Shown piece by piece: positions 41,612-43,003 of a stretch of 43,003 nucleotides of DNA. The stretch's first letter is position 1. Every line of letters begins with the position of its first letter. The stretch comes from Rhodovastum atsumiense (GTDB lineage: Bacteria > Pseudomonadota > Alphaproteobacteria > Acetobacterales > Acetobacteraceae). The DNA is taken from assembly GCA_026225115.1 (NCBI GenBank), contig JAMFSE010000030.1, forward strand, positions 1 to 43,003. Reading direction: 5' to 3'. Both the position numbers and the translations under genes were made by a program. Under the pieces are notes generated by a model. It made no database searches and was not told where the DNA came from. It worked only from the letters and a program-made list of their open reading frames with translations.

Positions 41612-41620
41612 GTCGTGGAT
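41612..41620 (+). repeat. Left fragment of the REP-like palindrome split by the IS
   Basis: GTCGTGGAT is the left end of a palindromic repeat; it joins to the GCCC... segment after 42980. It is also identical to bases 41672-41680 inside the proposed guide RNA (left target guide). The last two bases, AT, are the inferred core dinucleotide. Confidence 0.65.
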
Positions 41621-41639
41621 TGCGTGTTGGGTTACTGCT

Positions 41640-41785
41640 CGTAAAGGGTGGTGACGCCGGCAGGCGCCCGTGTCGTGGATTGGTCTTAGCGACCGTGGGC
41701 ATCTCGGGCTCTGCCGGCGTCTCGGTCTTACACGCGTACGGGAGGTTGGGCTTAGCGCCCGGATGCAATCCAGCGTGCGGACCAT
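41640..41785 (+). ncRNA. Candidate bridge RNA of the IS110-family element
   Basis: Two stem-loop domains are visible. Domain 1: GACGCCGGCAG (41653-41663) pairs perfectly with CTGCCGGCGTC (41711-41721), enclosing GGTC-TTAGC-GACC (41682-41694). Domain 2: CACGC (41731-41735) pairs with GCGTG (41773-41777), enclosing GGGC-TTAGC-GCCC (41748-41760). Domain 1 left loop 41672-41680 equals the left target; its right side 41696-41705 is complementary to the right target 42976-42985. Domain 2 left loop 41737-41746 matches the right end of the IS 42971-42980 (7/10 identical, the other three wobble-compatible); right loop 41763-41769 pairs with 41619-41625. This is the target-loop/donor-loop layout of IS110 bridge RNAs. 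Ends are approximate. Confidence 0.75.
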
Positions 41786-41809
41786 TTTTCCAAGTTGAGG
41801 GGACCGCTT

Positions 41810-42814
41810 ATGAAAAACAAGCTTTTTATCGGCGCAGACGTATCGAAAGATTGGATTGATGTGGCCGTCCACGGGCGGGCCGGAACGCAACGCATTGCCA
41901 ATACCGAGGCGGTAATCGGGGCTTGGATCGGGCGCCTGGAGGTTTCGCAGGTTGGTCTTTTTGTATTCGAGCCGACCGGCGGTTACGAACGCACTCTGCA
42001 ACGCTGCCTGCGCGATGCCAGGGTGATGTTCGCCCGTGTGCATCCCAATGAGGTGGTGGCGTTTCGCCGGCGTCGCGGCGTAAAGGCCAAGACCGATGTG
42101 ATGGATGCGCGTCTGCTGGCTGATTTTGCGGCGCTTGAGCTGTCTGGCCGCGGCTTGGCGGCGATGATCGCGGCTGATGAAGTCCTGGCGGAACTGGTCA
42201 GCCGCCGGCGCCAGTTGATGGAGACCCTGCAGGCCGAGCGCTGCCGCGCGGCGTTGGTAAGCGGCCCGGTGGCGAAGGCAAGTTTTGAGGCAGTTTCTAC
42301 AGCTTTGACAACCGCGCTCGGTTTGATCGAGACCACGATAGAGCAGCATATCGGCCAGCACGCAGAACTTGCCAAGATGGCCGGCTTGCTGCGCAGCCTG
42401 AAATGCGTTGGGCCGGTCACGGTGCATACCTTGCTGGCCGAGTTGCCGGAGCTGGGCTTGCTCACCGGCAAACAGATCGCCGCCCTGGTGGGCCTGGCGC
42501 CGCAACAGCGCGAGAGCGGCAAGCAACGCAGCCGCGCGATCACCGGACACGGCCGGCCCGGGGTGCGGCGCGTGCTGTTCAATGCGGCCCGGATCGCGAT
42601 CCGCTTCAACCCGGTGATGCGGGCGTTCTACCAGCGTCTGGTCGAGCAGAATGGCCGGCTTGGAAAGGTCGCCTTGACGGCGGTAATGCGCAAAATGCTG
42701 GTGACGCTCAATGCCATCGCCCGTGAACAAAAACCTTGGCACGGAGGCATCGCCGCCACACAAAAAGCATCGCTTCTTGGTTCGGCTAAAGACCGCTTCT
42801 TCGTCCCGGCCTGA
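41810..42814 (+). CDS. IS110-family transposase (RNA-guided recombinase)
   Basis: A 334-residue recombinase. The RuvC-like DEDD domain shows Asp10 ([12 protein letters not shown]), Glu54 or Glu60 (FEPTGGYE), and Asp96/Asp99 with a following Asp105 ([13 protein letters not shown]). The C-terminal Tnp_20 domain contains [34 protein letters not shown] (with the presumed catalytic serine) and [18 protein letters not shown]. The ATG at 41810 follows GAGGGG by about eight bases. The frame is intact, so the element may be active. The bridge RNA being 5' of the gene places it in the IS110 group rather than the IS1111 group. Confidence 0.93.
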
Positions 42815-42836
42815 TGATCCAAACGCGCCGCGCGCA

Positions 42837-42899
42837 ACAGCCGTCAAGGATGGCCGAAGGCCACCGCCGCAGGCGGCGCGCAGCGTCCTTGACGGCTGT
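42837..42899. repeat. Cloverleaf-like inverted repeat in the right noncoding end of the IS
   Basis: A perfect 14-bp outer stem (ACAGCCGTCAAGGA at 42837-42850 with TCCTTGACGGCTGT at 42886-42899) encloses two perfect hairpins in tandem: TGGCC-GAA-GGCCA (42851-42863) and CCGCC-GCA-GGCGG (42864-42876). The result is a three-way junction as DNA cruciform or RNA. It could be a terminator, a transposase-binding feature, or an older REP-type unit carried in the element. Confidence 0.75.
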
Positions 42900-42978
42900 G
42901 AGCACGGCGCCACACTCAGATCAGCCAGGGATGCCATGCCAATCACACCAAATTTTTGATTGACAACGAACACAGGAG

Positions 42979-43003
42979 ATGCCCAGCCTTCGCCGGGCAT
43001 GAC
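42979..43003 (+). repeat. Right fragment of the REP-like palindrome (IS target)
   Basis: ATGCCC (42979-42984) and GGGCAT (42995-43000) are reverse complements around a GC-rich loop, followed by GAC, which pairs with the GTC at 41612-41614 of the left fragment. Rejoined, the site gives GTCGTGGATGCCC...GGGCATGAC, the form of a common alphaproteobacterial intergenic palindrome. The window ends here. Confidence 0.65.

Follow-up and report, generated by a model that had tools for sequence, protein, structure and literature searches.

The transposase gene near the end of this contig raises the question of whether it belongs to a complete insertion sequence, in which a noncoding RNA matches both the target site and the ends of the element that carries it. 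The window, which is the whole of contig G000:C71 (43,003 bp) of the host genome G000, stops 23 bp past the proposed right end at 42980. We conclude that an IS110-group insertion sequence occupies 41621-42980 (1360 bp if the AT core is counted once); its transposase frame is open, and its left end (LE) encodes a bridge RNA. Taken as a whole, the explanation in which we place great confidence is that of an IS110-group element with a REP-targeting bridge RNA, an AT core and a 3' module that travels with the element. The features of the locus are collected in Table 1. A HIT-domain gene (41156-41530) adjoins the insertion, and a second stretch 76% identical to it is found at G000:C113:27375-27725; farther left, yidC, rnpA and a chromate transporter gene lie in a row on the minus strand (37339-41137). 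Because most matches to the HIT-gene stretch stop at query position 512 (window 41511), the intergenic site was not recovered when this stretch was used to look for an empty site within the genus.

Table 1. Features of the IS110-group element and its flanks (positions in the window)
Feature	Position	Strand	Description
Left target GTCGTGG + core AT	41612..41620	+	Left half of REP-type palindrome; 9/9 to LTG
Left end (LE)	41621..41809	+	Noncoding, encodes bridge RNA; relatives (CT|TG(T/C)A...) and G1008 copies have homologous starts
Target-binding stem-loop	41653..41721	+	Stem 41653-41663/41711-41721; cap GGTC-TTAGC-GACC at 41682-41694
Left target guide (LTG)	41672..41680	+	Identical to left target 41612-41620, 9/9
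Right target guide (RTG)	41696..41702	+	Complements 42979-42985 (ATGCCCA), 7/7
Donor-binding stem-loop	41723..41783	+	Stem 41723-41735/41773-41783; cap GGGC-TTAGC-GCCC at 41748-41760
Left donor guide (LDG)	41737..41746	+	Against right end 42971-42980: 7/10 identical + 3 wobble
Right donor guide (RDG)	41763..41769	+	Pairs with 41619-41625: 6 Watson-Crick + 1 wobble
IS110-family transposase/recombinase	41810..42814	+	334 aa; Pfam PF01548, PF02371; NCBIfam NF033542
3' module, dispersed structured repeat	42771..42923	+	R2 match 42806-42923
Right end TTGACAACGAACACAGGAG + core AT	42960..42980	+	Homologous to CTTGAC-N-ACAG-NNN-CT of relatives; single occurrence in element
Right target flank GCCCAGCC...	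42981..43003	+	Right half of REP-type palindrome, to contig end

The transposase matches PF01548, the RuvC-like DEDD domain, with an E-value of 4.4e-14 (53 bits against a cut-off of 29), PF02371, the Tnp domain with the conserved serine, with an E-value of 1.2e-19, and NF033542 with 166 bits against a cut-off of 140. The aligned residues D10, E54, D96, D99 and S236 are all present, S236 being invariant in alignment A1, and by analogy with IS621 (PMC11208158) these would be the catalytic residues. There is a single copy of the transposase in the host genome (one PF02371 match genome-wide).

First searches returned transposases of 29-45% identity. The right ends of these relatives read CTTGAC-N4..6-ACAG-NNN-CT, usually a few bases past the stop codon, and their left ends read CT-TG(T/C)A...; both ends of the window element, TTGACAACGAACACAGGAG-AT on the right and AT-TGCGTGTTGGGT on the left, can be aligned with these sequences. 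The right end and its guide have changed together, from ACAGTCGCT with guide ACAGTCGCC in the relatives to ACAGGAGAT with guide ACGGGAGGT in the window. As in other members of the IS110 group, the LE (189 nt) is longer than the right end region (RE, 166 nt including most of the 3' module), by a small difference. In four rhizobial IS110 loci (L088, L091, L093 and L145), the left junction reads CACCTTTGTAAC and the right junction CGCT, and these may have a target core TT against a donor core CT.

A search for close relatives by exact peptide patterns found none in GTDB contigs or viral contigs, and at E ≤ 1e-60 there was none in 299 family genomes except that of the window itself. A phage search gave one distant match only, and of 13 stretches with the right-end pattern in viral contigs none had a transposase relative at E ≤ 1e-5. 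In a tree of 114 proteins, built without the G1008 relative (which was found later), the window forms a long lone branch. A phylum-wide sample of 398 genomes contained one other genome at E ≤ 1e-55, namely G1008, whose transposase is 56% identical. It carries nine copies in which the left end, transposase C-terminus, module and right end are placed as in the window. The left junction is CTGGAT|TGC in eight copies and CTGGGT|TGC in one, the right junction is GGTAGAT| in all nine, and eight of the nine right flanks begin a REP palindrome (judged by eye).

The preliminary description had reported two TTAGC-capped stem-loops in the LE, and both were found. The LE folds with a z-score of -2.57 (2/200 shuffles fold equally well). 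All four guides lie in the LE in the order LTG-RTG-LDG-RDG, within a two-loop RNA as is characteristic of the IS110 group. The claimed identity of nine bases to the left target holds, and a longer match enters IS bases. Ten complementary bases had been proposed for the right target; seven of these (42979-42985) stand as the target match, and the other three (GAG) are part of the IS right end. The donor matches, given as seven of ten identical bases with the rest wobble-compatible at the IS right end and as seven pairs including the core and one wobble at the IS left end, agree with Table 1. The 10-base and the 7-pair count were taken directly from the sequence.

The LE of the G1008 relative aligns plainly with that of the window. 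The offsets of LTG, LDG and RDG are 43, 109 and 136 in the window against 42, 108 and 135 in the five scored G1008 loci (L211-L215), and the RTG offset is 67 in the window and in two of these five. In the scored loci the LDG matches the right end at 8/9 positions. The target guides fit less well there (LTG 7/9; RTG at best 5/7, at the expected place in two of the five loci).

When the flanks of the element are joined with one AT, they read GTCGTGGATGCCCAGCCTTCGCCGGGCATGAC, a palindrome, so that removal of the element restores its target as in the IS110 group. The restored site is a REP-type repeat. IS110 elements, IS621 among them, insert into REPs (PMC11208160, PMC1525189). The target expected for the guides of this element is GTCGTGGATGCCCA, and locus L206 reads GTCGTGGATGCCC, which is the predicted uninterrupted site. 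Of 120 host-family genomes, 8 contain the REP pattern TGGATGCCC-N2..24-GGGCATGAC, and G078 alone has 22 copies, several of which read TGGATGCCCGGCCTTCGCCGGGCATGAC, one base off the window site; the reversed control gave 0 among the matches listed. The pattern has 0 matches in the host genome G000, and the idea that this genome is full of the same REP was rejected. Loose matches to the 13-mer in the host genome (159, against 124 for the reversed control) gave no support for a REP-rich host, and no exact copy of the uninterrupted 13-mer target occurred among the matches listed for this genome, which begin at one mismatch.

Two explanations would undo this reading of the guides and ends. Guide matches might arise by chance in G+C-rich sequence, and each guide alone is only moderately unlikely: against mononucleotide shuffles of the LE, a match as good was found in 14/5000 cases for the left target, 105/5000 for the right target and 646/5000 for the left donor guide by identity, which makes the last the weakest (35/2000 with wobble allowed). 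The guides were also tested jointly against dinucleotide shuffles of the LE, with the junctions left free (81 left × 176 right positions) and with equal cores, a full 9-base LTG, a full 7-base RTG and bounded guide order and spacing demanded. The real LE gave a single solution (41619/42979, core AT). Among the shuffled LEs, 10/20,000 fitted both target guides and 0/20,000 did so once the donor guides were added. A comparison across 57 elements took in the window and those 56 of 127 relatives in which patterns that demand CT recognised both ends, near-identical copies being kept. In 37 of the 57 a guide fits the right-target 7-mer perfectly, with an own mean of 6.61 against 5.28 for the targets of other elements, and the right-end 9-mer scores an own mean of 7.96 against 6.45 for other ends; for the family as a whole, the fit to the left target is weak (6.54 against 6.06). 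Together with the REP restored by the joined flanks and the matching layout in G1008, the joint test leaves chance a negligible probability.

Alternatively, the IS might end near 42770, before the 3' repeat, with the repeat and the end at 42980 being host flank and the right guide matches a matter of luck. The repeat does exist elsewhere without IS110. A right end was recognised in 93 of 127 relatives, where it starts 8-42 nt past the W310 codon, with two exceptions (L094 at 94 nt; L151 at 119 nt, a mis-hit). In the window the distance is 220 nt, the excess being mostly the segment 42771 to about 42923. Against an end near 42770 stand the right end of relative type at 42960-42980, the REP that is restored when 41620 is joined to 42981, and the identical placing of module and right end in 9/9 G1008 copies. 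This alternative is very improbable and close to refuted. The ends proposed earlier, 41621 and 42980, are thus upheld by the joint guide test, the restored REP palindrome, homologous ends in relatives of about 40% identity and the nine G1008 copies; the same evidence bears out IS110-group membership, a two-loop bridge RNA and the AT core.

A covariance search with relatives' LEs, which the preliminary description had put forward as a check, did not recognise the window. The model (R1) was built from 31 of 39 prepared LEs, those of L086, L100, L102, L103, L125, L126, L128 and L150 being left out, all of which are among the 24 held-out loci. R1 finds 24/24 of these, as well as the G1008 relative (E 1.6e-5 and 4.8e-5 at the two loci tried). 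It has no match in the window at E ≤ 10, and when run unfiltered it scores 9.5 bits there, below the 10.5 bits of the antisense strand. Recognition by R1 is a criterion of our own and no part of a published definition of the IS110 group. Since the guide evidence is independent of the model, the miss reads as a diverged but real bridge RNA and not as an absent one.

The core is AT at both junctions of the window element, instead of the CT that marks the IS621-like subset. CT was read in 88 of 127 relatives; of the remainder, 3 were misread by the pattern, 4 gave other readings and 32 had no recognised end. Three loci of a Pirellulaceae genome (L138, L146 and L151) also belong to the IS110 family, with right end ACAGCCGAT, and have an apparent second natural AT core; they sit elsewhere in the tree than the window. 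That the AT core is distinct from the CT of IS621, as first proposed, is supported by the joint test and the G1008 copies, although its occurrence in L138, L146 and L151 makes AT uncommon rather than unique. As the G1008 copies are AT-cored, the AT core is a feature of this small branch. IS621 prefers a CT core; AT cores work less well in it, but a right-target pairing of 7 bp improves them (PMC11208160). The window element combines a natural AT core with 7-nt right-target pairing. No report of a natural AT-core IS110 element or of the 3' module was found by searches of the open-licence literature, figures and supplements (which may show the cores of further IS110 elements) aside.

The earlier reading did not include the 3' module: segment 42771-42923 is a repeat that is found elsewhere. 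It is a covarying structure of about 120-150 nt between transposase and right end, with a long stem topped by three small hairpins. The last ~14 codons of the transposase and its stop codon come from the left part of the module. The module alignment (A4) holds 23 copies, made up of 20 of 22 prepared copies (the diverged L084 and L085 being left out) plus the window, L072 and L213; of 30 pairs, 15 have changes on both sides. The covariation score is 0.297, against 0.103 when shuffled and ≤ 0.061 when slid, the structure having been predicted from the same alignment, so that the slide control leans in its favour. Rfam gave no match at the gathering threshold, and three matches below it (E 0.067, 0.33 and 0.65) were judged to be chance. 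A tandem half-copy of the IS was rejected as the origin of the module, as no second LE or RE occurs inside the element in a search to 7 substitutions, and resemblance to the LE was rejected too (an 8-base match only).

The segment recurs in 25 of 120 family genomes (the host included) and in 26 plasmid records. In the host genome there are two further matches, G000:C80:39667-39786 and G000:C1:14589-14696, away from its only IS110 gene; one adjoins an M20 peptidase gene and the other a carbamoyl-phosphate synthase small-chain gene. With the module model R2, matches at E ≤ 1e-5 under strict filters were found in 8 of 318 genomes of the class, the host included. Run on 98 sources (the window and 97 IS110 loci, a part of all IS110 loci), R2 found four carriers, namely the window, L025, L211 and L213, of which the window and L213 belonged to its training set.

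The stretch from the transposase stop codon to the right end contains the module in the window, all nine copies of G1008, L061, the partial L071 and three loci of G479. It thus occupies this position in no fewer than four types of IS110 element, and also in one remnant (L072). In the G479 loci (L254, L258 and L260), all with a Pfam-confirmed transposase, the module is followed by right end ACATCACAGTTGCT and then by a REP-like flank. The module also follows IS110-type gene ends in L025, L066 and L074, where a right end was not found. In L072, an AAA ATPase domain and the tail of an IS110 transposase domain share one open frame (426-1475), with the module and an IS110-type right end behind it. 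An intact IS110 gene was rejected for this locus, as the frame is an AAA ATPase with only the IS110 domain tail, and it seems that an IS remnant supplies the 3' end of the AAA ATPase gene.

Open reading frames beside module copies were hand-picked for Pfam tests, the first ten for their likeness to transposases (L066 had no Pfam match). Among the neighbours of the module are an IS21 istB gene (L059), an IS3-type integrase core (L062 by Pfam; L064, L065 and L070 by eye) and possibly an IS1595 transposase (L083, below cut-off). At L059, L062 and L083 the module is in the opposite orientation. It also follows host genes, namely those for an M20 peptidase, an amidase, an ABC permease and a transglutaminase.

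How the element would work can be sketched by homology. Its DEDD/serine recombinase most likely binds the LE-derived RNA, whose first loop would pair with both strands of the REP-type palindrome GTCGTGG-AT-GCCCA. The second loop would pair with the two ends of the element itself, ACACAGGAG-AT on the right and AT-TGCGT at the left start, which would be joined in an excised circle with the predicted RE-LE junction ...CACAGGAGAT|TGCGTGTTGG. Recombination at the AT core would insert this circle, and a promoter spanning the circle junction would drive synthesis of the RNA, as in IS621. The guide pairings and the restored empty site can be read in the DNA itself; RNA expression, circle formation and activity are expected from IS621 and ISEc21. 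The junction promoter would have a perfect -35 box (TTGACA at 42960) and, at a spacing of 17, a -10 box CGTGTT with 2/6 matches; in relatives the junction -10 is TATCTT or TAACTT in 25 of 41.

Whether the element is still mobile and whether the module does anything for it are judged less firmly. The preliminary description had called the element intact. This is likely, and is put no more firmly because the RE-LE junction has a poor -10 beside its perfect -35. A decayed, immobile copy left as a fossil insertion would explain the single copy in the genome, the weak junction -10 and the C-terminus extended by the module; the open reading frame with its aligned DEDD and serine residues and the target-guide matches that are still exact argue against decay, to which we give somewhat less than an even chance. 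For the module, the odds are about even that it is a passenger of no use to the IS: a dispersed repeat of the REP/MITE kind, whose copies land behind stop codons, those of host genes among them. Copies beside other IS families (IS3, IS21 and possibly IS1595, there in the opposite orientation) and after ordinary host genes mean that the module can be a passenger. Against this, it sits between transposase stop and right end in the window, the G1008, L061/L071 and G479 types and the remnant L072, it is in sense orientation to the transposase in each IS110 case looked at, and its pairs are strongly conserved. That it keeps one place and the sense orientation in IS110 elements speaks for a role, and our best guess is that the transposase transcript contains it as a 3' untranslated or terminator-like segment. 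A broader proposal, which we consider doubtful, is that an AT-cored IS110 branch of Alphaproteobacteria uses a bridge RNA together with a conserved right-end structured RNA (the stem with three hairpins), the latter being a shared portable cofactor or regulator of transposition that was taken up independently by several unrelated insertion sequences.

Among known systems, IS621 of E. coli (Durrant et al. 2024, PMC11208160; companion structure paper PMC11208158) resembles the window element in its DEDD and Tnp recombinase, its LE RNA with a target loop followed by a donor loop, guides that each include the core, a REP target and promoter parts across RE-LE (PMC11208160). From IS621 the window element differs in its AT rather than CT core, its donor sequence and the 3' module before its right end. 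Its right-target pairing is 7 nt against 4 in IS621, longer pairing being reported for some orthologues (PMC11208160). ISEc21, with its seekRNA (Siddiquee et al. 2024, PMC11187229), likewise has an upstream noncoding RNA that matches both target strands, but its target lies inside IS3-family genes, and a 3' module is not described in the available parts of that paper. REP-targeting IS110 elements, including ISRm19 of Sinorhizobium (Tobes and Pareja 2006, PMC1525189), are inserted in REPs like the window element; the REP association is described there, in the text available, without guide RNAs. ISPpu9 of P. putida, which is listed as IS110 family (PMC1525189), is also inserted in REPs and has a noncoding gene, ssr9, downstream of its transposase (Gomez-Garcia et al. 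2021, PMC8450116). As ssr9 also occurs alone in the genome, it is a precedent for a downstream noncoding gene (PMC8450116). The likeness of ssr9 and the module is one of description, and ssr9 is reported beside copies of the IS end box, unlike the window element with no second copy of an end.

Among bridge-RNA elements, this well-supported one is a variant set apart by its AT core, its diverged branch and its 3' module. Natural AT-core bridge systems are of interest because IS621 prefers CT, and the AT core occurs here with a 7-nt right-target pairing; in engineered IS621, pairing of that length helped cores other than CT (PMC11208160). The window element and the G1008 relative with its nine copies lend themselves directly to tests of AT-cored bridge systems. 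The module is structured, lacks an Rfam family and stands beside several IS families as well as host genes, and direct tests can decide between a passenger and a functional part of transposition.
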